From: a virus
Reading direction: 5' to 3' (one strand)
Virus record (IMG/VR): IMGVR_UViG_3300046000_000794
Location: 1-32,648 of that record
DNA: 32,648 bases
The notes below the pieces were generated by a model. It saw nothing but the letters and a program-made list of their open reading frames with translations. It made no database searches and was not told the origin of the DNA. Each line of letters starts with the position of its first letter. The first letter of the stretch is position 1. Positions 6,118 through 29,020 of the stretch are shown one piece after another. Position numbers and translations under genes: made by a program.

Positions 6118-7062
6118 ATGGCAGGTGAAAACGACGAGTTCAAGTTCCCCGACGAAGTCGAGGGCAAGAACACAGATAATGAAACTGAGATCGAGATTGA
6201 GATTGTTGATGACACTCCCGAACGTGACCGGGGGCGCAAGCCTCTTGACCGTGAAGTAGCTGATCCGACAGACGAAGAGATCGAATCCTACTCTGACAAA
6301 GTCAAGAGCCGCATTAAAGAACTGACCCACGCACGTCATGACGAGCGCCGTAAGGCCGAGTCACTCTCGCGTGAACGTCAGGAACTAGAGCGCCTTGCAC
6401 AACAACTTATCGACGAAAACAAAAGTCTTAAACAGCGATATAATGCTGGGCAAGAAGTTTACGCAACAACCGCTAAAGAAAAAGCGGAGGCAGACCTTGG
6501 TTTCGCACGCAAAGCCCTGAAGGATGCTCACGAGGCGTTTGACACGGATGCGATTGTTGCAGCGCAAGAACAGCTTGCAGAAGCTAAGATGCGCTCAGAG
6601 TCGATGAAAAACTTTAAGCCAACCCCTTTACAAGAGGATGGATATGAGTTAAAAACTCAACAGAACACCCAACAAGCCGCTAAACCCGACGAAAAGTCCC
6701 TGCGCTGGCAGGCCAAAAACCAGTGGTTCGGGCAAGACGGCTTCGAGGAATACACCAGCTACGCACTAGGGCTGCACCAAAAACTAGTCACCGGAGGTAC
6801 TGACCCCCGCTCTGATGATTACTACGACCACATTGACGGTCGCATGAAGTCGAAGTTTCCCGAGTTATTTGGGAACGATGACAAGCCGAAATCTGGTGAG
6901 GTTCAAAAGAAACCTACAACAGTTGTCGCTCCAGCATCCCGTAGTACGGCATCTGGAAAGATACGATTGACAGCAACCCAAGTGGCGCTGGCTAAGAAAT
7001 TTAACCTAACGCCGCAGCAGTATGCTGCCCAAGTAGCTAAACTGGAGAACCAAAATGGCTGA
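6118..7062 (+). CDS. Capsid scaffolding protein
   Basis: This 314-residue protein is very acidic at the N-terminus (NETEIEIEIVDDTPERDRG), has a long charged coiled coil at about 60-165, and ends with a helical KIRLTATQVALAKKFNL / TPQQYAAQVAKL element. This is the usual design of an internal scaffold, in which a C-terminal helix-turn-helix binds the coat protein. It precedes the capsid genes and has an AAGGAG site upstream. It would direct procapsid assembly and then leave or be degraded; no protease gene is visible nearby. The acidic N-terminal motif recurs in the portal. Glu/Lys/Gln content is far above that of neighbouring genes. Confidence 0.85.
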   Translation: MAGENDEFKFPDEVEGKNTDNETEIEIEIVDDTPERDRGRKPLDREVADPTDEEIESYSDKVKSRIKELTHARHDERRKAESLSRERQELERLAQQLIDENKSLKQRYNAGQEVYATTAKEKAEADLGFARKALKDAHEAFDTDAIVAAQEQLAEAKMRSESMKNFKPTPLQEDGYELKTQQNTQQAAKPDEKSLRWQAKNQWFGQDGFEEYTSYALGLHQKLVTGGTDPRSDDYYDHIDGRMKSKFPELFGNDDKPKSGEVQKKPTTVVAPASRSTASGKIRLTATQVALAKKFNLTPQQYAAQVAKLENQNG

Positions 7063-8137: not shown

Positions 8138-9070
8138 ATGGCTATTTCTCGTGCACAGCTACTTAAAGAACTCCTTCCCGGACTGAACGCTTTGTTTGGT
8201 ATGGAGTACGCCCGCTACGGTGAAGAGCATAAGGAAATCTACGAGACCGAGAGCTCTGAGCGCTCGTTTGAAGAAGAGACCAAGCTCGCCGGTTTTGGTG
8301 CCGCACCTGTCAAGAACGAAGGCTCTGCCATCGCTTACGACAACGCGCAGGAAGCTTTCACTGCTCGCTATACCCACGAAACCATCGCTCTGGGCTTCTC
8401 CATCACGGAAGAAGCTGTGGAAGACAACCTGTATGACAGTCTGTCTGCCCGCTACACCAAGGCTCTGGCTCGTGCTATGGCCTTCACTAAGCAAGTTAAA
8501 GCTGCTTCCGTTCTGAACAACGGTTTTAGCGGTTCTTACCTTGGTGGTGATGGCGTTTCGCTGTTCGGCGTGAACTCAAGCTCTGCCCGCGTGGGCCATC
8601 CGCTGGTTGGCGGTGGTCAGAACTACAACAGCCCGACCGTTGGTGTTGATCTGAACGAAACCTCGCTGGAAAACGCCACGATTCAAATCGCTGCGTGGAC
8701 CGATGAGCGTGGACTGCTGATCGCTGCCAAGCCAGTCAAGCTGGTGGTTCCCCCGGCACTGATGTTCTCGTCCAAGCGTCTGCTGGACACCGAACTGCGT
8801 GTTGCTACTGCTGATAACGACATCAACGCGTTGAAGCAAATGGGCACCATCTCCGGCGGTTACTGTGTGAACCACTTCTTGACCGATCCGAACGCATGGT
8901 TCTTGACCACCGACGTTCCCAACGGCTTGAAGCACTTTGAGCGTATGGCGCTGGACACCAAAATGGACGGCGACTTCGACACCGGCAACGTCCGCTACAA
9001 GGCCCGCGAGCGTTATTCGTTCGGCTGGTCTGATCCCCTCGGCATGTGGGGCTCTTCGGGTTCGACCTGA
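8138..9070 (+). CDS. Major capsid protein
   Basis: This 310-residue protein has a strong AAGGAG site and is followed directly by a strong intrinsic terminator, as fits the most abundant virion protein. It follows the scaffold and decoration-like genes. Characteristic segments are LLKELLPGLNALFGMEY at the N-terminus, FSITEEAVEDNLYDSL in an E-loop/spine-like region, KLVVPPALMFSSKRLL, and GDFDTGNVRYKARERYSFGW near the end. These recall HK97-fold capsid proteins of the Mu gpT-like group. It lacks an obvious cleaved pro-domain, consistent with a separate scaffold gene. Fold assignment is by pattern, not by structure comparison. Confidence 0.88.
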   Translation: MAISRAQLLKELLPGLNALFGMEYARYGEEHKEIYETESSERSFEEETKLAGFGAAPVKNEGSAIAYDNAQEAFTARYTHETIALGFSITEEAVEDNLYDSLSARYTKALARAMAFTKQVKAASVLNNGFSGSYLGGDGVSLFGVNSSSARVGHPLVGGGQNYNSPTVGVDLNETSLENATIQIAAWTDERGLLIAAKPVKLVVPPALMFSSKRLLDTELRVATADNDINALKQMGTISGGYCVNHFLTDPNAWFLTTDVPNGLKHFERMALDTKMDGDFDTGNVRYKARERYSFGWSDPLGMWGSSGST

Positions 9071-9959: not shown

Positions 9960-10449
9960 TGTCAAGTCAGCCCACTTAAATGTGAGCGGGCAAATGGTCG
10001 TGAGCCGTGCGCGGCTTAAGGCTCTGATCTCTATGGGCACTGCAACCGCAGGTACGGTGAACTTCTGGGATACGACGACTGCTCCTGTTGCAATCACGTA
10101 TGGCCGAGCAGGCACGCTTATCACTGTAACGCTGGCGGCTCACGGGCTGTTAACGGGGCAGGTGGTTGGGCTGACTTTCGGGCCAGATGGCTCTTCTCGC
10201 GTTGGAACTAACGGCAACTATGTTGTCACAGTCCTAACTTCTAGCACGTACACGGTGACGGACATCAACTCCGGAACCGTTACTGCTGGCACTGCTGGTA
10301 CGCAGGGAGCTCGATGGTTGATGTCTATGGACACCAACACTGCGTCGGACGTAATCACGCTGCCCATTCCGGGCGAAGGTGTTTTGGCGGTTGATGGTAT
10401 TTATTGCCAGATGACTAACCAAACCGGCGTCACGATCTTCTATGGCTAA
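9943..10449 (+). CDS. Putative structural protein with beta-module
   Basis: The start at 9943 is favoured over 9949 because GGAG at 9932-9935 is then seven bases away. The 168-residue product holds a beta-repeat module: LITVTLAAHGLLTGQVVGL, then GTNGNYVVTVLTSSTYTV. This 'HGL...G-x-V ... NG-x-Y-x-V ... TYTV' arrangement recurs in phage virion proteins, including the large neck protein at 26858 in this window. The C-terminus (GVLAVDGIYCQMTNQTG) is typical of small tail or head-surface proteins. Function is unproven. Confidence 0.6.
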   Translation: MTMQTDVKSAHLNVSGQMVVSRARLKALISMGTATAGTVNFWDTTTAPVAITYGRAGTLITVTLAAHGLLTGQVVGLTFGPDGSSRVGTNGNYVVTVLTSSTYTVTDINSGTVTAGTAGTQGARWLMSMDTNTASDVITLPIPGEGVLAVDGIYCQMTNQTGVTIFYG

Positions 10450-10696
10450 AACACCAGCATGGACCCGCAAAGAAGGCAAGTCGGAGAGGGGCGGCCTCAA
10501 CGCGAAGGGCCGTGCGTCCTACAACAAGGCCAACCCCGGGAAACCCGGGTTGAAAGCACCGCAACCCGAGGGCGGGTCAAGGCGCGACTCCTTCTGTGCA
10601 AGGATGAGTGGGATGAAGAAGAAGCTCACCTCAGCGAAGACCGCGAACGACCCAAACTCCCGGATTAATAAGTCCTTGCGGGCTTGGAAGTGCTAA
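10442..10696 (+). CDS. DUF6321-like basic protein
   Basis: This 84-residue, strongly basic protein overlaps the previous gene by eight bases. It contains AWTRKEGKSERGGLNAKGR, SYNKANPGKPGLKAPQPEG and SRRDSFCARMSGMKKK, a pattern I recall as DUF6321, found in many aquatic phages with unknown role. Lys/Arg content is high enough to bind DNA or capsid interior. It is the first of a long run of very small basic proteins. The family name is from memory. Confidence 0.7.
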   Translation: MAKTPAWTRKEGKSERGGLNAKGRASYNKANPGKPGLKAPQPEGGSRRDSFCARMSGMKKKLTSAKTANDPNSRINKSLRAWKC

Positions 10697-10697
10697 T

Positions 10698-10904
10698 ATG
10701 ACTGACCACACAGATAGCGTAAAAAACGTGCTTGACTTTGTTGCGGTGTTTACTGCTATTGGTTCGTTTTTGAACTTGCTCAACCCTTTGTTTGTGCTTA
10801 TCGGTGCAGTCGTGGGTGTCATGCGCATCTATGAAATGTCTACCGGCAAAGAGTTCAGTTCGCTCTGGCGTAAAAAGCGAGACGATGATGCCGAGCACAA
10901 GTAA
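10698..10904 (+). CDS. Small membrane protein, possible holin-like
   Basis: This 68-residue protein has a continuous hydrophobic stretch at residues 11-46 (VLDFVAVFTAIGSFLNLL, LFVLIGAVVGVMRIYEM), room for one long or two short membrane helices, then a basic/acidic tail (LWRKKRDDDAEHK). Size and topology resemble small class II holins. The lysis cassette, however, is 14 kb away and has its own holin. It starts two bases after the previous stop. It might be a second holin or regulator, or act in ejection; nothing in the sequence decides. Confidence 0.6.
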   Translation: MTDHTDSVKNVLDFVAVFTAIGSFLNLLNPLFVLIGAVVGVMRIYEMSTGKEFSSLWRKKRDDDAEHK

Positions 10905-11235
10905 GAAGCAGCATGGGTTTATGGCGGCGGTGGCTAAGAACCCCGCGTTTGCCAAGAAAGTTGGTGTGCCTACAAGTGTGGGCAAAGATTTTCTTAACGC
11001 GGACAAGGGCCGCAAATTCAAAGAAGGTGGCGATATGAAAGAGTCCAAAGCTATGGTTGGTAAAGAGATGGCCTTCATGAAAAAGAAGGGCGCTCCCAAG
11101 TCCATGATCAAACATGAGATGGGTGAGATGAAGATGGCTAAAGGCAAGCCGTTTGCCAAAGGCGGCGGCATTGAGTCCAAAGGCAAGACCAAGGGCAAGA
11201 TGGTCACCATGAAGCGCGGCGGCAAAGCCTGTTAA
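10888..11235 (+). CDS. Lys/Gly-rich miniprotein with GKTKGKMV cassette (1 of 4)
   Basis: The start is placed at 10888 (a tandem ATG at 10885 is equally possible), because the longer in-frame reading covers the upstream membrane gene. The 115-residue product begins MPSTSKKQHGFMAAVAKN and includes VGVPTSVGKDFLNADKGR, SKAMVGKEMAFMKKKGAPK and a C-terminal ESKGKTKGKMV followed by TMKRGGKAC. It is very rich in Lys, Gly and Met. Proteins of this pattern are widespread in aquatic phages I recall, with no known function. It shares its C-terminal cassette with the next three genes. DNA binding or packing inside the capsid is possible. Confidence 0.7.
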   Translation: MPSTSKKQHGFMAAVAKNPAFAKKVGVPTSVGKDFLNADKGRKFKEGGDMKESKAMVGKEMAFMKKKGAPKSMIKHEMGEMKMAKGKPFAKGGGIESKGKTKGKMVTMKRGGKAC

Positions 11236-11237
11236 TC

Positions 11238-11513
11238 ATGGCTACAAAAAAAGCAAAACGGTTTGACGACGGCGGGGTTGTTGGCAATTCCAACTACCCG
11301 TTTGGTCAGGCGCAGGCTGCATCAGCTCCGGCTTCTACTAGCCCCGGCTTGGGCAATACGTCCCCGTTGGTGCAGGTAACTACGCCCGGTGCGCAAGCGC
11401 AGGAAGTGGTTGAATCCGCGAAGCCGTTTGGCATGAAAAAAGGCGGTATGACCGCATCCCGTCGTGGTGATGGTGTTGCCCAACGTGGCAAAACTCGCGG
11501 AAGGATGGTTTGA
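11238..11513 (+). CDS. Miniprotein with RGDG...GKTRGRMV cassette (2 of 4)
   Basis: This 91-residue protein starts three bases after the previous stop. It begins MATKKAKRFDDGGVVGN, has a low-complexity Ala/Ser/Pro/Gln middle, and ends with FGMKKGGMTASRRGDG followed by VAQRGKTRGRMV at the exact C-terminus. The final ~25 residues match those of the next gene, while the N-terminal two thirds differ completely. This suggests a functional tail attached to interchangeable bodies. It has no membrane segment or known catalytic motif. Confidence 0.7.
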   Translation: MATKKAKRFDDGGVVGNSNYPFGQAQAASAPASTSPGLGNTSPLVQVTTPGAQAQEVVESAKPFGMKKGGMTASRRGDGVAQRGKTRGRMV

Positions 11514-11514
11514 T

Positions 11515-11973
11515 ATGGCGATTTTTAAGCCTAAACCAATGGCAAAGCCGGTTATTGCACCCAAGCCGATTGCAGCAAAGCCGATTGCAGCAAAACCCGT
11601 AATGGGCAACCCTGTTATGCCCGGTATCAAGCCGCTTCCTCCCGGCTCCATTGGGATGCCCGGCGGGCCGGGGGGTAAAACTATGTACAACACGGGGCCA
11701 ATGCCAATGCCCGGAAATGTTGAGCAAAACTACCGTGGCACTCCCGGTCTTGTAAACGCTACTGCGCCCATTGGTAATATAGCCAGCCGTCTTGCTGGGG
11801 GGCCAGCCCCAAGCCAACCTGTCATGGGGAACAAAATCAACACAACGGGGTTTAAAAATATGTCCCCCGCGACTTTGCAATCGGGTATGAAAAAAGGCGG
11901 CAAGGTATCCTCCGCTTCATCTCGTGGTGACGGCATCGCTGTTAAAGGCAAGACCAAAGGTAGGATGGTGTAA
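11515..11973 (+). CDS. Pro-rich miniprotein with RGDG...GKTKGRMV cassette (3 of 4)
   Basis: The start at 11515 (MAIFKPKPMAKPVIAPK) lies one base after the previous stop with GGAAGGA upstream; a longer reading would cover the previous gene. The 152-residue product is Pro/Lys/Gly-rich, with tandem KPIAAK repeats and KPLPPGSIGMPGGPGG, so it is probably extended and disordered. The C-terminus MKKGGKVSSASSRGDG then IAVKGKTKGRMV repeats the cassette of the adjacent genes. No function is known. Confidence 0.7.
   Translation: MAIFKPKPMAKPVIAPKPIAAKPIAAKPVMGNPVMPGIKPLPPGSIGMPGGPGGKTMYNTGPMPMPGNVEQNYRGTPGLVNATAPIGNIASRLAGGPAPSQPVMGNKINTTGFKNMSPATLQSGMKKGGKVSSASSRGDGIAVKGKTKGRMV
11566..11595 (+). repeat. 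Tandem 15-bp repeat (PIAAK codons)
   Basis: CCGATTGCAGCAAAG at 11566-11580 is followed directly by CCGATTGCAGCAAAA at 11581-11595, differing only at the last base. The repeat keeps frame and encodes PIAAK twice in a disordered proline-rich segment, consistent with replication slippage. Confidence 0.9.
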
Positions 11974-11975
11974 CT

Positions 11976-12218
11976 ATGGCTAAAATTTCCGAAATACTGG
12001 CTTCTGGCGTTGGTGGTGTCCTGCCGGTTTTGATGGCCCGAGACTACGAGAAGCAAAAAGCTCAAGAGGCAGCCGCAGCAGAGCGGGATAAAACCGCTTC
12101 CGTAGGTAACGTCGGTTCTTCTGGAAACGTCGGCACGGTGAGCAAGATGAAAAATGGCGGTGTCACTCGTGCAGACGGCTGCATAACCAAAGGCCACACT
12201 CGTGGCAAGATGGTGTAA
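11976..12218 (+). CDS. Miniprotein with RADG...GHTRGKMV cassette (4 of 4)
   Basis: This 80-residue protein starts two bases after the previous stop. Its N-terminus (MAKISEILASGVGGVLPVLM) is mildly hydrophobic, followed by a charged Ala/Glu helix and a Gly/Ser linker. It ends with KMKNGGVTRADGCITKGHTR and GKMV, the same cassette as its two upstream neighbours, with Ala for Gly and His for Lys. A different body on a shared C-terminal element again argues that the tail is the conserved functional part. Confidence 0.7.
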   Translation: MAKISEILASGVGGVLPVLMARDYEKQKAQEAAAAERDKTASVGNVGSSGNVGTVSKMKNGGVTRADGCITKGHTRGKMV

Positions 12219-12220
12219 CC

Positions 12221-12496
12221 ATGAGAGCCAGCCGTGGCATGGGGGACATCAACCCATCTAAAATGCCCAAAGGGGTCAAGAAGCCCCGGCGGGATAACAC
12301 CGACTTCACGCAGTACGCTGAAGGCGGGAAGGTGAACGCGGCTGGCAATTACACGAAACCTGAACTCAGGAAACGCATAGTCAGTCAGGTCAAGTCCGCA
12401 GCCACTCATGGCACCGGGGCAGGACAATGGTCAGCCCGTAAGGCTCAGCTTGTTGCCAAGAAGTACAAGGCAGCAGGTGGGGGGTACCGAGATTGA
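12221..12496 (+). CDS. Basic protein with GQWSARKAQL module
   Basis: This 91-residue protein has a basic N-terminal half (MRASRGMGDINPSKMPKG) and a helical C-terminal module: TKPELRKRIVSQVKSAATHG, then GAGQWSARKAQLVAKKYKAA and GGGYRD. That module is a recurring element of phage and some giant-virus small proteins as I recall, with unknown function. The middle AEGGKVNAAGNY echoes the GG-K-V start of the neighbouring miniprotein cassettes. It overlaps the next gene by four bases (TTGA). Confidence 0.7.
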   Translation: MRASRGMGDINPSKMPKGVKKPRRDNTDFTQYAEGGKVNAAGNYTKPELRKRIVSQVKSAATHGTGAGQWSARKAQLVAKKYKAAGGGYRD

Positions 12497-12726
12497 AAGC
12501 GCCGCAGCAGTCATTAAAGGATTGGGGCGACCAAAAATGGAAGACAAAAAGTGGCAAACCGTCTAGTAAAACTGGTGAGCGATACCTTCCAGAAGCTGCG
12601 ATCAAAAGCCTCAGCCCTGCTGAGTACGCTGCAACGACTCGTGCGAAACGTGCGGGCAAAGCTGCCGGGAAGCAATTCGTAAAGCAGCCCAAGGGCATAG
12701 CTAAGAAAACAGCAGGGTTTCGATAA
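12493..12726 (+). CDS. DUF5872-like basic protein (TTG start)
   Basis: Translation appears to start at TTG 12493 on the preceding stop (TTGA). The 77-residue product reads LKDWGDQKWKTKSGKPSS, TGERYLPEAAIKSLSPAEYA and a basic QPKGIAKKTAGFR end. This is a sharply conserved small family found in phages and large eukaryotic viruses; I recall it as DUF5872. The pattern is complete, supporting the unusual start. Its role is unknown; strong positive charge makes nucleic-acid contact plausible. The stop overlaps the next ATG (TAATG). Confidence 0.75.
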   Translation: MKAPQQSLKDWGDQKWKTKSGKPSSKTGERYLPEAAIKSLSPAEYAATTRAKRAGKAAGKQFVKQPKGIAKKTAGFR

Positions 12727-13661
12727 TGGCAACCACCTCCGGCGCAAGCAGCTTTAACCTCGACCTCTCTGAGATCGTTGAGGAGGCATTCGAGCGTGCC
12801 GGTAGTGAGTTGCGCACGGGCTATGACCTCAAGACCGCTCGTCGGTCGCTGAACCTGTTGTTCGCAGACTGGGCCAACCGTGGCCTGAACATGTGGACTT
12901 TTGAGCAGGGCACGATCCCTTTTGTGCAGGGCCAGAACACCTACCCGCTGCCAAACGACACGGTAGACCTGATGGAGCATGTGATCCGTACAGGCGCAGG
13001 CAACGCAGCTACCCAAGCCGATCTGTCTATCACACGCATCAGCGTCTCCACCTACGCCACGATCCCCAACAAGCTCCAGCAAGCACGACCCATTCAAATC
13101 TGGGTGCAGCGCTATACCGGACAAATCTCCCCCACAGGGCTAACCGTCTCCGGCGGCACCTTGTCAGCCACCAACACGACCGTTACGCTCAGCTCCACCG
13201 TGGGTCTTCCCGCTGCTGGGTTTGTCAAGATTGACAACGAGATCATTGGCTACGGAGCGATTAGCGGGAATACCCTAACAAGCTGCGCCCGGGGGCAGGA
13301 CAACACTACTGCAGCCACGCATACCTCTGGTACGGCGGTTTATTGGGCACAGGTACCCGCCGTTACGGTGTGGCCTACCCCTGATGGCTCCCAGACATAC
13401 CAACTCGTGTACTGGCGTTTGCGGCGCACCCAAGACATTGGAGATGGCGTGAACGTGGCGGATGTGCCATTCCGGTTTGTGCCGTGCATGGTAGCGGGAC
13501 TGGCTTACTATCTGGCGCTTAAAATACCCGGTGCGGAAGCACGGCTGTCGGTTCTCAAAGCCCAGTATGACGAGGCTTGGGAGGTTGCCAGCACGGAAGA
13601 TCGTGAGAAGGCATCCATTCGATTTGTGCCGCGTCGTATGTTTATTGGCGGTGGCTTCTAA
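12726..13661 (+). CDS. Neck adaptor protein, P22 gp4-like (probable)
   Basis: This 311-residue protein starts on the preceding stop (TAATG). Residues 14-60 (LSEIVEEAFERAGSELRTG, LKTARRSLNLLFADWANRG) match a helical family I recall as tail accessory or adaptor factor like P22 gp4, which binds below the portal after packaging. Residues 137-206 form an inserted Thr/Ser/Gly beta module (VKIDNEIIGYGAI, TSCARGQDNTT) splitting IQIWVQRY from VTVWPTPDG. The C-terminal helices (FVPCMVAGLAYYLALKIPG) complete the family pattern. A closely similar insert occurs in the 26858 neck protein. Confidence 0.75.
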   Translation: MATTSGASSFNLDLSEIVEEAFERAGSELRTGYDLKTARRSLNLLFADWANRGLNMWTFEQGTIPFVQGQNTYPLPNDTVDLMEHVIRTGAGNAATQADLSITRISVSTYATIPNKLQQARPIQIWVQRYTGQISPTGLTVSGGTLSATNTTVTLSSTVGLPAAGFVKIDNEIIGYGAISGNTLTSCARGQDNTTAATHTSGTAVYWAQVPAVTVWPTPDGSQTYQLVYWRLRRTQDIGDGVNVADVPFRFVPCMVAGLAYYLALKIPGAEARLSVLKAQYDEAWEVASTEDREKASIRFVPRRMFIGGGF

Positions 13662-14232: not shown

Positions 14233-14424
14233 ATGTCTGGAAAAATTACCACCGTGGCAACGCCTGTAGTTGGGCAAATGCCTGTTAAAGAAGCGCTAAA
14301 GGCCAACGTGTCTGTGGCAAACGAGCGCAGTAACGAGTACAAGCCCACCAAGACCAGCGGCATTAAAATCCGTGGAACCGGCGCAGCTACCAAGGGCTTG
14401 ATGGCTCGTGGACCGATGGCCTAA
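14233..14424 (+). CDS. 63-residue protein with RGTGAATKG C-terminus
   Basis: The start at 14233 is one base after the preceding stop with AAGGAG close upstream; a longer reading would overlap the previous gene. It begins MSGKITTVATPVVGQMPVK and ends SGIKIRGTGAATKGLMARGP then MA. The Gly/Lys-rich C-terminus is a conserved small-phage-protein signature that I recall, function unknown. It is compositionally related to the other miniproteins but has a distinct tail motif. Confidence 0.7.
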   Translation: MSGKITTVATPVVGQMPVKEALKANVSVANERSNEYKPTKTSGIKIRGTGAATKGLMARGPMA

Positions 14425-18928: not shown

Positions 18929-19642
18929 ATGTCCACCATCAACTCCAAGAACGTACAGGTCGGCACATCTAACGTGGCGGCGGAAAACTTCACGCTGTAC
19001 CAGCCGAGCACCCCGGACGGCACGGTTCGCCTTGGCGTTGGTAACTCTGGTGCCACGACTGCGGATGTGGTGACGGTCAATAGCGCTGGCGTGACGGTTA
19101 CTGGGTCTGTGGCCGCTACGACCGGCACATTTAGCGGTGCGGTTCAAGCCAGTGGGGTTACGACTAATTTGTACCCATTAGTCTCAGGCACCGCTGTTGC
19201 TTCAACCTCGGGCACCAGCATCGATTTCACGAGCATCCCCTCTTGGGTTAAAAATATTACGGTGATGTTTAACGGGGTTAGTGGAAGTGGATCATCTGAT
19301 TTTTTGTTTCAATTAGGCGATTCTGGCGGTATTGAGACGACAGGCTATTTAGGAGCTGGGTCTGTAGTTGGTGCAAGCGTGACTACCACAAACTACACAG
19401 CAGGATTTGGGTTTGCTGGTGGTGGAGTAACAGCAAAAGTTTGGCAAGGTGCAATTCGTTTTGCAAATATTACTGGCAATACTTGGGTTGCTGACGGCGT
19501 TTTTGCTCGATCTGATGGAGCTAATACCGCGCTAGTTGCAGGTGGTAAATCGCTTACTGATGTCCTTGACCGCGTCCGCATAACTCATGTCAACGGCACT
19601 GATACGTTTGACGCTGGCACTATTAATATTTTCTACGAGTAA
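18929..19642 (+). CDS. Mini tail fibre, N-module A + C-module X
   Basis: This 237-residue protein has GAGGAA upstream. Residues 1-47 (module A: NFTLYQPSTPDGTVRLGVG, NSGATTADV) are nearly identical to those of the 21033 product. Residues 80-237 (module X: LYPLVSGT, STSGTSIDFTSIPSWVK, ITVMF, LDRVRIT, VNGTDTFDAG) match the 20007 product. Within X the ends are conserved and the centre diverges, as expected for receptor-facing loops. It probably trimerises as a short fibre or fibre-tip protein. Receptor and virion location are unknown. Confidence 0.72.
   Translation: MSTINSKNVQVGTSNVAAENFTLYQPSTPDGTVRLGVGNSGATTADVVTVNSAGVTVTGSVAATTGTFSGAVQASGVTTNLYPLVSGTAVASTSGTSIDFTSIPSWVKNITVMFNGVSGSGSSDFLFQLGDSGGIETTGYLGAGSVVGASVTTTNYTAGFGFAGGGVTAKVWQGAIRFANITGNTWVADGVFARSDGANTALVAGGKSLTDVLDRVRITHVNGTDTFDAGTINIFYE
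19031..19068 (+). repeat. 38-bp exact direct repeat, copy 1
   Basis: These 38 bases (CTTGGCGTTGGTAACTCTGG onward) are identical to 21135-21172. They encode the end of module A in two different mini-fibre genes 2.1 kb apart. Bases just outside differ at several synonymous positions, so the exact identity marks a possible recombination seam or recent duplication. Confidence 0.95.
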
Positions 19643-19645
19643 CCC

Positions 19646-20005
19646 ATGAGCACGATTGCAGTCAACGCCATCAACCCAACGTCTGGTACGCTGACTGTTG
19701 GCAGCACGGGGCAGTTTGTCCCTTCTGTAGGTACGACAGGTGAGCGGCCTACACCCGTACAGGGTGGCTTCCGGTTCAACACCACGCTTATCAAGTTTGA
19801 GGGCTACAACGGGACCGCGTGGTCTGCTGTGGGTGGTGGGGCTACGGGCGGTGGCAGTGACAACATCTTTATCGAGAACGGCCAGACGGTGACCACGAGC
19901 TATAGCATTCCCTCTGGCAGCAACGCCGGTACGTTCGGCCCGGTCAGCATCGACGCAAGCGCAGTAGTGACGGTTCCCTCTGGCTCTGTTTGGACGGTGG
20001 TTTAA
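19646..20005 (+). CDS. Mini tail fibre, N-module D + C-module Z
   Basis: This 119-residue protein follows the previous stop by three bases without a clear ribosome site, so reinitiation is likely. The N-terminus (MSTIAVNAINPTSGTLTVG) leads to ERPTPVQGGFRFNTTLIKFE and GYNGTAWSAVGGG, a beta motif common in phage fibres. The last ~40 residues (SYSIPSGSNAGTFGPVSID, VVTVPSGSVWTVV) correspond to the Z ending of the 16172 fibre. It is a very short fibre consisting almost entirely of shared modules. Its role is inferred from context. Confidence 0.7.
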   Translation: MSTIAVNAINPTSGTLTVGSTGQFVPSVGTTGERPTPVQGGFRFNTTLIKFEGYNGTAWSAVGGGATGGGSDNIFIENGQTVTTSYSIPSGSNAGTFGPVSIDASAVVTVPSGSVWTVV

Positions 20006-20006
20006 T

Positions 20007-20549
20007 ATGGCTATTACGATGGACGGAACCTCTGGGATTACCACCCCTGCGGTTCAAACCGGCGGGGTTGCTGTTAGCTTGTACCCCCTAGTCTCCGGCA
20101 CTTCTCAGGCGTCCACCTCTGGCACGAGCATCGACTTCACCAGCATCCCGTCTTGGGTGAAGCGAATCACGGTGATGTTTCAAGGGGTAAGTGGAAGTGG
20201 AACAAGTGCCAAATTAGTTCAGATAGGAACTTCAGGAGGAATTGAGGCTACTGGTTATTTATCAACAAGTAGTCTTTTGGGCTCCGCTTCAGGCGTAACC
20301 GCAAACTCAACTGCCGGTTTTATATGTAACAGCGCCTCGGCTTCAGAGGTTATTTCCGTAATTTTTACTATTGTAAATATTTCTGGGAATGCTTGGGTAA
20401 GTTCTTACACGGGGAAAGTAGCCACAACAACCACTGCTTATGGTGGTGGGGATAAAACGCTTTCAGGGACTCTTGACCGCGTCCGCATCACCACCGTCAA
20501 CGGCACCGACACCTTCGACGCCGGTTCCATTAACATCTTGTACGAGTAA
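20007..20549 (+). CDS. Mini tail fibre, N-module C + C-module X
   Basis: This 180-residue protein starts one base after the preceding stop with no Shine-Dalgarno. It opens with a short leader (MAITMDGTSGITTPAVQTGG), called C here and widespread in phage fibres. Residues 24-180 are module X: SLYPLVSGT, STSGTSIDFTSIPSWVK, TLDRVRITTVNGTDTF and INILYE. Its partner at 18929 has the same module on a different leader. The central ~80 residues have diverged, while the flanks remain near-identical in protein and similar in DNA. Confidence 0.72.
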   Translation: MAITMDGTSGITTPAVQTGGVAVSLYPLVSGTSQASTSGTSIDFTSIPSWVKRITVMFQGVSGSGTSAKLVQIGTSGGIEATGYLSTSSLLGSASGVTANSTAGFICNSASASEVISVIFTIVNISGNAWVSSYTGKVATTTTAYGGGDKTLSGTLDRVRITTVNGTDTFDAGSINILYE

Positions 20550-20552
20550 GCC

Positions 20553-21023
20553 ATGAGCCTGAAACTAAACTCCTCCGGCGGCGGCAGTGTCACTCTGCAA
20601 GAGCCAAGCACGGCGAGTAACCTGACGTTGACGCTGCCAGATGCGACGGGCACGGCGGTGATTCAAAACGGCAGCAACAACTTGCTGATGAACTCGGGGT
20701 ATGGCTCGGATGCTGTGGCCTATGGCTGTAGGGCTTGGGTGAAATTCAACGGCACTGGCACTGTGACGATAAATGGCAGTGGGAACGTGTCTAGCATTAC
20801 GGATAACGGGACTGGTAACTACACCATAAACTTTACGACCGCAATGCCTGACGACACATATTCTGTTGCTGGATGGGCTTGTGATAATAATAGCGGTGGT
20901 AACCAGACTATTGTAAGTGCGTTTGCAAACCACACATATTCTGCATCAGCGTGTCAAATCTATTGCTATGAAACATCTGCCACAATTGATCCAACAAGAG
21001 TTTGTGCTACTTTTTTCCGTTAA
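20553..21023 (+). CDS. Mini tail fibre, N-module B + C-module Y
   Basis: This 156-residue protein carries the B-type leader (GGSVTLQEPSTASNLTLTL, PDATGTAVIQNG), as at 17561. Residues 47-156 are module Y: NSGYGSDAVAYGCRAWVKF, GNVSSITDNGTGNYTINF, TTAMPDDTYSVAGWA, ending ATFFR. Module Y recurs in the next gene on a different leader. The GCRAWVKFNG core with a C-terminal FR is a fibre-tip pattern I recall from environmental phages. The gene follows the previous stop by three bases with only a weak ribosome site. Confidence 0.72.
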   Translation: MSLKLNSSGGGSVTLQEPSTASNLTLTLPDATGTAVIQNGSNNLLMNSGYGSDAVAYGCRAWVKFNGTGTVTINGSGNVSSITDNGTGNYTINFTTAMPDDTYSVAGWACDNNSGGNQTIVSAFANHTYSASACQIYCYETSATIDPTRVCATFFR

Positions 21024-21032
21024 AGGACAAAC

Positions 21033-21539
21033 ATGAGCACTTTAAAAACAAACAACGTGCAGGTAGGCCAGTCGGCCACAGCCACCAACAACTTCACGTT
21101 GTATCAGCCAAGCACGCCTGACGGCACGGTGCGTCTTGGCGTTGGTAACTCTGGTGCCACGACTGCGGATGTCGCCAGCTTCAATTCGTCCGGTGTGTTT
21201 GCGTTTAACTCGGGATATGGGTCGTCTGCCACCGCCTTTGGCTGTCGTGCTTGGGTGAACTTCAACGGCACGAGTACGGTGGCGATTCGTGCCAGTGGGA
21301 ATGTAAGTTCGATCACGGATAACGGCACGGGCGACTATACGGTCAACTTCACGACGGCGCTGGCGGATGCAAATTATTCGGCGCAAGTGTGGGCGGCGAC
21401 TGCTGGCTCAACTGGTGTATTCATCCCAACTCAAAGCTCTACCACTGTTCCAACAACGTCTGCGTTAAGGCTTGTCACTCGAAACGGTTCAGCAACAGCA
21501 AACGACTTAGACTACGTTCAAGTCGCCATCTTCCGTTAA
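21033..21539 (+). CDS. Mini tail fibre, N-module A + C-module Y
   Basis: This 168-residue protein has AAAGGA upstream. Residues 1-47 are module A, shared with the 18929 product. Residues 59-168 are module Y (GYGSSATAFGCRAWVNFNG, GNVSSITDNGTGDYTVNF, ending QVAIFR), shared with the 20553 product. It is therefore a direct hybrid of two other genes in the array. The last third of module Y has diverged completely between the copies, as expected for a host-contact surface. Confidence 0.73.
   Translation: MSTLKTNNVQVGQSATATNNFTLYQPSTPDGTVRLGVGNSGATTADVASFNSSGVFAFNSGYGSSATAFGCRAWVNFNGTSTVAIRASGNVSSITDNGTGDYTVNFTTALADANYSAQVWAATAGSTGVFIPTQSSTTVPTTSALRLVTRNGSATANDLDYVQVAIFR
21135..21172 (+). repeat. 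38-bp exact direct repeat, copy 2
   Basis: Identical to 19031-19068. It lies at the boundary between the A leader and the Y body of the 21033 gene, exactly where a module exchange would have to occur. Confidence 0.95.
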
Positions 21540-26857: not shown

Positions 26858-29020
26858 ATGCCGTTGCAAAAACTACTTTTCAAACCGGGGGTCAACCGTG
26901 AATCAACCACGCTTGCCAACGAGGGCACTTGGTTTGAGATGGACAAGGTGCGCTTTCGTTCTGGCTACCCCGAGAAGCTGGGTGGTTGGGTAGCGGATAC
27001 CGGCGGGTATTACAACAACGGCACATCTCTGGCTCCTACGACCGGGTCTTTTTGGGGCACCTGCCGTGCGCTTTGGAACTGGGTGACGCTCTCTAGCTAC
27101 AACCTGATGGGTCTTGGCACCCACTTGAAGTATTACATTCAGCAGTCTTCCGGGGGTAACTTCTACGACGTTACTCCAATCCGCGACACCAACGTGATTG
27201 CGGCCAACGCCTTCACAACCACCAATGCTTCAACAACGGTCATCATCAACGACCCCGGCTACGGCGCGGGCAACGGCGACTTTGTCACCATCTCAGGAGT
27301 GGCGGGTGCTGTAAACGGCATTCCGGCTTCTGCGCTGAACAAAGAATTCCGCGTCACGTATATTGACTCCTCCACCTATAGCATCGTAGTTGCTTCTCCG
27401 GCAACATCGTCGGGCACTACAGGCGCGGCCACATTTGCGTATCAGATTTCTATCGGCCAAGAGATTTTTACCACCCTCACAGGCTGGGGCGCTGGTGGCT
27501 TTGGCGGCACGATAACGGTTGCAGCAACGACAACCCTGAACGGGGCGCTCAATGACAGCGCAACCACAATTACTGTCGTATCCACTACAGGGTTTACTGC
27601 CACGGGCGCTATTGGAATTGGCGGCGAGTACATCACTTACTCAGGTTTAACAGCTACTACATTTACAGGCTGCACCCGAGGCGTAGGTAGTACCGCCGTG
27701 GCTCATAACTCTGGGGATGTCGTCAATCAGTACAGCAATGCCACAGGCTGGGGCGTGTCTGCAACTTCTGGTGTGGCTGTGCAGCTTCGGCTTTGGAGTC
27801 AGACCAACTACGGCCAAGACCTCGTCATTAACCCACGAGGCGGTGCTTTGTATCTGTGGAAGGTAAATGCCAGCCCCAACACATATGACCGGGCTGTTTT
27901 GCTCTCCCCGTCAAGCGCCGCCCCGTACACCACAGACTCAAGCTGCCCCACGATTTCTAACGCAGTAACGGTATCAGACTCGTCGCGGTTTGTCATTTCG
28001 TTTGGTTGCAACGACTACGGCTCCGCTACTCTTGACCCCCTGCTGATCCGTTGGTCTGACCAAGAAGACTACGCTACATGGGCACCGGCAGCTACGAATC
28101 AGGCGGGCAGCTACCGCTTGTCTACCGGCTCCAGTATCGTTGCCCACCAACAGACCCGGCAGGAGATTCTTGTCTGGACGGACGCAGCGCTGTATTCCAT
28201 GCAGTACCTTGGCGCTCCGTATGTGTGGGGCTTTCAGATTTTGGGCAGTAACAACTCAATTGCTGGCCCCAACGCCGTCGCCACCGCAGCCAACATCACG
28301 TACTGGATGGGGCTGGATAAGTTCTACATGTACTCGGGCCGCGTGGAAACCCTGTACTGCCCGCTGCGTCAGTACATCTTCGGGGACATCAACCTCTTGC
28401 AGCAGTATCAGTTCTTTGCCAGCACCAACGAGGCATACAACGAAATCTGGTGGTTCTACTGCTCGGCAAACTCCAACCAGATCGACCGCTACGTCATCTA
28501 TAACCATTTGGAGAAGATTTGGAGCTACGGTAACTTGGCCCGTACAGCATGGTTGGACAGCCCTCTACGGGATTACCCGGCAGCAACCGGCTATGGCAAC
28601 CAACTGATCTACCATGAAAACGGTGTGGATGACGGCACCACCAACCCGCCCAGTGCCATTAGTGCGTTCTGCCAGTCTGCCGACTTTGACATTGGGGACG
28701 GGCATAACTACGGCTTTGTTTGGCGGATCATTCCTGACCTGACTTTTGACGGCTCGTATGTTAACAACCCAGCGGCGACATTTACCGTTCGGCCCCGTCA
28801 GAACCCCGGTGCCAATTACGGCACGGCGGATACGCCAACAGTGACCAGCACGCAGAACTACCAAGGCCAGCGTAACTACGTGGTGCAGCAGTTTACCCAG
28901 ATCGTTTACACGCGCATCCGTGGCAGGCAGATGGCATTCAAAATTAGCTCTGAAGGCTTGGGCGTGAACTGGCAGCTTGGTGCACCCCGGATTGACATCC
29001 GCCCGGACGGCCGGAGATAA
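26858..29020 (+). CDS. Large neck/stopper protein, P22 gp10-like (probable)
   Basis: This 720-residue protein begins MPLQKLLFKPGVNRESTTLA and FEMDKVRFRSGYPEKLGGW, a pattern I recall from packaged-DNA stabilisation proteins of gp10 type in short-tailed phages. Repeated blade-like segments follow (LWSQTNYGQDLVINPRGGAL, QEILVWTDAALYSMQYLG, YWMGLDKFYMYSGRVETLYC), suggesting a beta-propeller. Two inserts lie near the N-terminus: residues 115-195 (NG...F-R-V-T-Y-I-D type) and 226-292 (GGEYITYSG, GCTRGVGST). The second closely resembles an insert in the 12726 neck protein. It would close the tail channel after packaging. An AAGG site precedes the start. Confidence 0.72.
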   Translation: MPLQKLLFKPGVNRESTTLANEGTWFEMDKVRFRSGYPEKLGGWVADTGGYYNNGTSLAPTTGSFWGTCRALWNWVTLSSYNLMGLGTHLKYYIQQSSGGNFYDVTPIRDTNVIAANAFTTTNASTTVIINDPGYGAGNGDFVTISGVAGAVNGIPASALNKEFRVTYIDSSTYSIVVASPATSSGTTGAATFAYQISIGQEIFTTLTGWGAGGFGGTITVAATTTLNGALNDSATTITVVSTTGFTATGAIGIGGEYITYSGLTATTFTGCTRGVGSTAVAHNSGDVVNQYSNATGWGVSATSGVAVQLRLWSQTNYGQDLVINPRGGALYLWKVNASPNTYDRAVLLSPSSAAPYTTDSSCPTISNAVTVSDSSRFVISFGCNDYGSATLDPLLIRWSDQEDYATWAPAATNQAGSYRLSTGSSIVAHQQTRQEILVWTDAALYSMQYLGAPYVWGFQILGSNNSIAGPNAVATAANITYWMGLDKFYMYSGRVETLYCPLRQYIFGDINLLQQYQFFASTNEAYNEIWWFYCSANSNQIDRYVIYNHLEKIWSYGNLARTAWLDSPLRDYPAATGYGNQLIYHENGVDDGTTNPPSAISAFCQSADFDIGDGHNYGFVWRIIPDLTFDGSYVNNPAATFTVRPRQNPGANYGTADTPTVTSTQNYQGQRNYVVQQFTQIVYTRIRGRQMAFKISSEGLGVNWQLGAPRIDIRPDGRR

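Follow-up and report, generated by a model that had tools for sequence, protein, structure and literature searches.

A C-terminal peptide tag on small basic proteins with unrelated bodies in one lineage of aquatic phages, and its possible role in virion targeting

Phage T4 packs small, basic and variable internal proteins into its head and then ejects them; these proteins have only a short capsid-targeting sequence in common, and one of them counters restriction (PMC3012670, PMC9026906). The capsid-targeting sequence (CTS) of IPI, IPII, IPIII and Alt is N-terminal, consists of 10–19 residues and is cut off by the protease gp21. Here we describe a peptide tag that resembles the T4 CTS as a short terminal peptide on small basic proteins with variable bodies, and that differs from it in being C-terminal and basic, in having no known cleavage and in that it can be internal. 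As in T4, one short terminal peptide is attached to unrelated proteins, which in this case form 152 body groups. However, the tag lies at the C-terminus or 7–12 residues before it, and an N-terminal related core was seen only in a small downstream gene of some relatives. We claim no sequence relation between the two peptides, and virion incorporation has been shown for the CTS only. The tag is not a T4 CTS, but by analogy it may work like one. Two described domains also occur at this locus. DUF6321 (PF19846) is a C-terminal module on proteins of widely differing size and is one of the bodies that bear the tag; it differs from the tag in being a conserved domain with predicted helices, and most of its copies in the lineage are untagged. 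The SKKQ N-terminal domain of giant-phage proteins (phrog_16759, phrog_22033, phrog_25121; PHIKZ165.1, CBB_322) matches residues 1 to 40–50 of one product of the locus; the tag is not known from these giant-phage proteins, of which the tblastn search covered the N-terminal region only. Beyond DUF6321 and this N-terminal domain, neither the tag nor its bodies are represented in PHROGs, Pfam or PDB.

The window, by which we mean the whole stretch of 32,648 nucleotides that was analyzed, is a 32.6-kb virus record with genes for a terminase, a portal protein, a probable scaffold (6118–7062), the major capsid protein (MCP) and a candidate cement protein, as well as an array of small proteins, an adaptor and tail proteins. 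The tagged and tag-like genes, the DUF6321 gene and the MCP and adaptor genes are all on the + strand. The MCP gene (8138–9070; phrog_371 major head protein, E 1e-18, and synteny) marks the left edge of the interval in which relatives have their tagged genes, and the gene for a head-tail adaptor homologue (12726–13661; tblastn homology to the 'Pam1 adaptor protein' gene of phage DSL-LC04) marks the right edge. In 20 related contigs, the order portal, scaffold, MCP, DUF6321, small genes and adaptor was found wherever the respective parts were present, and terminal tags, of which there are about 1–6 per contig, were confined to the interval between MCP and adaptor. Two separate observations concern other genes of the window. 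The adaptor and a large virion protein (26858–29020) both match phrog_4406, phrog_2885 and phrog_358 over short stretches (residues ~145–195 and ~216–301, respectively), which suggests an inserted module common to the two. Neighboring tail- or fibre-like ORFs in the region 18929–21539 have near-alike stretches (for example STSGTSIDFTSIPSWVK and NFTLYQPSTPDGTVRLGVGNSGATTADV), suggestive of a recent duplication.

The tag follows the pattern [MK-K/N-GG]…R[GA]DGxxx[RK]G[KH]T[RK]G[RK]MV-stop and is complete in three adjacent ORFs. Tagged protein 1 (91 aa; 11238–11513) consists of a low-complexity body and the terminal tag MKKGGMTASRRGDGVAQRGKTRGRMV (11433–11513 including the stop codon), and its ORF ends with FGMKKGGMTASRRGDGVAQRGKTRGRMV. 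Tagged protein 2 (152 aa; 11515–11973; end GMKKGGKVSSASSRGDGIAVKGKTKGRMV) has a P/A/G/M-rich body followed by the tag MKKGGKVSSASSRGDGIAVKGKTKGRMV (11887–11973 including the stop codon). Tagged protein 3 (80 aa; 11976–12218; end KMKNGGVTRADGCITKGHTRGKMV) starts with a short hydrophobic N-terminus, and its tag MKNGGVTRADGCITKGHTRGKMV (12147–12218 including the stop codon) is a Lys-to-His variant. The 115-aa product of the ORF at 10888–11235, which we designate a class-2 tagged protein, combines an N-terminal SKKQHGFMAAVAKNPAFAKKVGVP..DF domain and a basic middle part with only the end part of the tag, GGGIESKGKTKGKMV, after which nine residues follow (TMKRGGKAC). The ORF ends thus bear out an earlier note on this DNA, according to which three products stop at MV and the product of 10888 has the end part of the tag. 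A degenerate DNA version of the pattern occurred three times in the window and not once in 100 dinucleotide-preserving shuffles. With a tag profile, the three terminal copies scored 40–52 bits and the partial copy of 10888 scored 17, compared to at most 14.8 for reversed proteins. The same note had described the bodies as unrelated, and indeed the four bodies did not align with one another; the best pair was an A/P-rich stretch of 26 residues (E 0.003 without composition correction). An AlphaFold model of tagged protein 1 contained no secondary structure (mean pLDDT 61.5).

In addition to the four products named in the earlier note, a small protein encoded past the adaptor and zinc-motif genes (14233–14424) has a divergent tag-like end, KIRGTGAATKGLMARGPMA, in which the core spacing is as in the tag (RxxGxAxKG), and which is kept at the same place in many relatives. 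Weaker related cores were found in relatives at two places: near the N-terminus of the small gene past the zinc-motif gene, and at the end of the gene that follows it, which is the homologue of 14233–14424. Near the zinc-motif genes of loci L217, L224, L226 and L228, for example, a protein of 60–70 aa has a related core near its N-terminus (such as MYKSGADGITKQGKTKGKNLGNSGPT).

With one tagged protein as query, we retrieved 186 related stretches from IMG/VR, and most of the best 80 matched in the tag only; a search with the DNA tag pattern matched at least 120 stretches. The set analyzed comprises 203 loci, 199 of them from IMG/VR, the sample of tagged loci having been collected through the tag itself or through one tagged protein. 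A profile search of these loci identified 517 tagged ORFs that encode 450 unique proteins. The tag is immediately followed by the stop codon in 354 ORFs, by one residue in 74 and by 7–12 residues in approximately 65–70, the latter being the class-2 ORFs that resemble 10888. It spans about 16–28 residues and is strongly basic, with a median net charge of about +7. Across 314 aligned tags, Gly17, Gly22, Thr24 and Gly26 never changed, Asp16 was altered once and Arg14 twice, an invariance that is in part inherent in the pattern with which the seed tags were collected. Lys and Arg replace each other at the basic positions, and Lys23 is replaced by His in 32 of the 314 tags. Moreover, the tag is shortened to a GKT[RK]A-stop end in 41 distinct variants; since A can thus stand in for GRMV, the exact end of the tag is not essential. 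Neither the tags alone nor the tag profile had a significant match in PHROGs or PDB, and we did not find the motif described in the literature. When 90 representative tagged proteins were compared to PHROGs and Pfam, a set to which the 10888 product with its phrog_16759 match does not belong, the DUF6321 protein gave the only strong match.

Three candidate explanations for the motif were rejected. The letters G-I-A-V-K-G-K-T fit the GxxxxGK[ST] consensus of a Walker A P-loop, but the would-be catalytic Lys is the residue that is His in 32 of 314 tags, and the model of tagged protein 1, which is devoid of secondary structure, also speaks against a P-loop fold. The GG at the start of the tag brought to mind double-glycine leaders and RiPP-like precursors, but these have a conserved leader and a variable core, opposite to the arrangement in the tagged proteins. 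Finally, gene conversion between tags was considered; third codon positions agreed somewhat more often within loci (0.45) than between them (0.40), but site-specific codon preferences explain much of this difference.

The composition of the tag raises the possibility that it is simply a nucleic-acid-binding tail, in which case tagged proteins would need no specific protein partner to wrap or compact the packaged DNA or to bind phage RNA. The positive charge of the tag would suffice for simple binding of nucleic acids, the bodies are likewise mostly basic and hydrophilic, and the spacing of its K/R-G repeats is similar to that of basic glycine-rich nucleic-acid-binding tails. Charge alone, however, would not demand that Asp16, Gly17, Gly22 and Thr24 be essentially invariant while Lys and Arg interchange, nor would it predict that the tag occurs in one phage lineage only among the loci sampled. 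We therefore consider this explanation unlikely, although it is, together with external decoration (see below), one of the two main rivals to targeting.

To describe the diversity of the cargo, the tag was stripped from 424 proteins and the remaining bodies were grouped by BLAST, which yielded 152 groups. No fewer than 105 of these are single proteins, and the largest, with 111 members, is held together by common modules. In an alignment of the 90 representatives, little is conserved except the starting Met and the tag. The tag was found on at least two body groups in 152 of 196 loci, and on at least three in 80 loci. The earlier suggestion of modular tagging of different cargo is upheld by these numbers: the cassette is not restricted to one orthologous gene, and the bodies fail to align. 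The median length of the tagged proteins is 119 aa, all of them have a pI above 9, and they are hydrophilic (body GRAVY about −1), a clear hydrophobic segment being present in only 15 of the 424 bodies. Without the tag, the bodies have a median pI of 9.3, and about 15% of them are acidic. As a separate observation, a dockerin- or EF-hand-like stretch (PDLTGDGKVTRADVLKGRGVFKKGG) is present in some tagged proteins (L078, L104) and also, untagged, in Pelagibacter phage HTVC027P (L001, 28129–28395).

With regard to origin, the diversity of bodies could in principle result from duplication and drift, in which case one tagged ancestral gene was copied and the bodies diverged past recognition while the tag alone was constrained. 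Most bodies are of low complexity and could diverge fast, and the many single-protein groups are in line with such a history, which would also be compatible with a targeting function. On the other hand, two of the bodies, DUF6321 and the SKKQ domain, are conserved domains in their own right that are present in other phages, and the tag must therefore have come by addition on these at least. Pure duplication and drift is thus refuted for DUF6321 but may still apply to many of the low-complexity bodies; as a general account we regard it as very unlikely.

The DUF6321 protein of the window (10442–10696) is untagged, and scores 68.9 bits against a Pfam gathering cut-off of 28.5, whereas the same body is tagged in other members of the lineage. 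Among 102 distinct copies, 86 stop at a conserved Cys, as in the window, and 16 run on into the tag, which is always a clean extension past the last Cys. On a DUF6321 tree, which was built on 84 columns and is poorly resolved, the distribution of tagged and untagged copies requires nine parsimony changes, at least two of which are forced by well-supported branches. Modular tagging is thus also evident from gain and loss of the tag on this conserved body. A structural model of DUF6321 has predicted helices (pLDDT 83); Foldseek found no match to it in PDB, and its matches in BFVD were almost all to other DUF6321 proteins. In BFVD, the domain is seen as a C-terminal module on cyanophage proteins of 104 to 856 aa, and DUF6321 may thus itself be a terminal module.

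The codons of the tag were analyzed at positions 1–12, where pS and pN amount to 0.63 and 0.17 within loci and to 0.71 and 0.23 between loci (pN/pS 0.27–0.32). Synonymous changes have thus nearly reached saturation, but the residues have been retained, which implies selection at the protein level. The last codons show an additional pattern, as in terminal tags Gly13 is encoded by GGA or GGG in 72% of cases, compared to 26% in long genes, and Arg14 by AGG or CGG in 71%, compared to 21%. In the tag of protein 1, the last codons GGA AGG ATG GTT TGA are a likely ribosome-binding site for the ORF at 11515, and more generally, in the region 11490–12221 and in relatives, terminal tags, unlike internal ones, have final codons that also serve the next gene as a purine-rich ribosome-binding site. 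In the GKT[RK]A-stop variants, GGA-AA[A/G] is often found before the stop codon. These biases would be expected if the cassette were kept chiefly as DNA or RNA, as a ribosome-binding site for the next gene that couples translation along the array. Such a function accounts, however, for synonymous choice in the last codons only. The 69 internal tags retain the residues with ordinary codons (Gly13 is GGC or GGT in 94%), and untagged long genes with a start codon 0–8 nt downstream show a comparable shift in Gly codons. Because untagged, closely packed genes show this shift too, the embedded ribosome-binding site is a by-product of tight packing and not the reason for the tag. Conservation at the DNA or RNA level as the main function is thus largely refuted and, in our judgment, extremely improbable.

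Strict marker genes of one phage lineage were detected in 196 of the 199 tagged loci, the remaining three being no longer than 1.4 kb. All informative tagged loci among those sampled accordingly belong to one lineage, with the tag-based sampling leaving room for the tag outside it. The nearest isolates, as judged from TerL and MCP, are Pag-Yong1 and its near-identical relatives, as well as DSL-LC04 and the Pelagibacter phages HTVC027P and HTVC023P. Of the four isolates tested, only Planktothrix phage Pag-Yong1 has the tag, as a single divergent copy in protein UMO75986.1. Searching the INPHARED phages by tblastn with tagged proteins and the consensus tag gave no match, while the same type of search, run locally on the collected loci, matched 470 pieces. 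Except for the divergent copy of Pag-Yong1, the tag is thus close to absent from isolates, and the tagged phages are almost all uncultured. In more distant isolates, few genes separate MCP from adaptor, and no tag was found in those examined. A search of bacterial genomes for the host matched only six metagenome-assembled contigs, which were uninformative. Since the late regions of HTVC027P, HTVC023P and DSL-LC04 contain small basic genes that are untagged, the tag is not needed for small basic late proteins in general.

Based on the present data, we tentatively propose that the tag is a lineage-specific C-terminal virion-targeting peptide on small, late, basic proteins, analogous to the N-terminal CTS of T4; we consider this a serious possibility, albeit short of probable. 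A role in targeting, packaging or binding of a common partner fits the gene location and the protein properties, as judged from the sequences. Our inferences beyond the pattern itself concern the entry of tagged proteins into the virion, the partner they bind and what becomes of the cargo. The flexible basic tag, with its invariant R, D, G, G, T and G, would probably dock on one conserved virion partner, for which the scaffold, the inner face of the capsid and the portal region are the most likely candidates. Docking during head assembly would bring several small, mostly basic and disordered proteins into the head, the bodies being exchangeable cargo with a fast turnover. By analogy with the T4 internal proteins, the cargo might then leave the head together with the DNA and target the host or its defenses, or else help to condense the DNA. 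Restriction to one lineage, as seen among the sampled loci, is what would be expected if a conserved partner were required. In our view, docking on such a partner is the best explanation for a peptide that is retained on changing small basic proteins, next to head genes and in one lineage.

The gene location also fits a different destination, in which the tag would dock on the outside of the capsid or on the adaptor as an external or neck/tail decoration, with the disordered bodies pointing outward. The tagged genes sit between the cement and adaptor genes, and variable bodies suit an exposed surface. Decoration proteins are usually folded, however, while the tagged proteins look disordered and are very basic, and this makes decoration quite unlikely. 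It is more improbable still that the tag is a signal for proteolysis or processing (a prohead-protease site, a degron or an export cleavage site) or a mark of non-virion proteins that act in the cell. Short conserved C-terminal peptides are often processing signals, and the replaceable GRMV end could be read in this way, but the class-2 proteins run 7–12 residues beyond the tag, and no separate protease gene was recognized among the ten structural-region genes of the window that were scanned.

With respect to virion targeting, the N-terminal domain of the 10888 product provides the only experimental hint, an indirect one that concerns the body and not the tag. This domain matches phrog_16759 (E 2e-19) as well as phrog_22033 and phrog_25121, which are families of 'virion structural protein', and appears related to CBB_322, although the pairwise match is weak (tblastn E 0.02). 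CBB_322 was detected by mass spectrometry in virions of phage CBB with 30 peptides and 43.6% coverage (PMC5259590).

A further-reaching version of the targeting proposal is that the tag acts as a general loading signal, such that its acquisition would suffice for any small protein to be packed into the virion and delivered to the host, and each genome would carry a changing set of injected effectors, some of them possibly directed against host defenses. We regard this as possible but doubtful. Regardless of function, a short peptide that was gained or lost more than once on a conserved protein is a clear case of modular tagging. If the tag is indeed a loading signal, it would be a C-terminal counterpart to the T4 capsid-targeting sequence, and it would explain why a fast-changing row of small genes is kept between the capsid and adaptor genes. 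It would then also permit candidate injected proteins, mostly without a recognizable family, to be listed from sequence alone in many uncultured aquatic phages.
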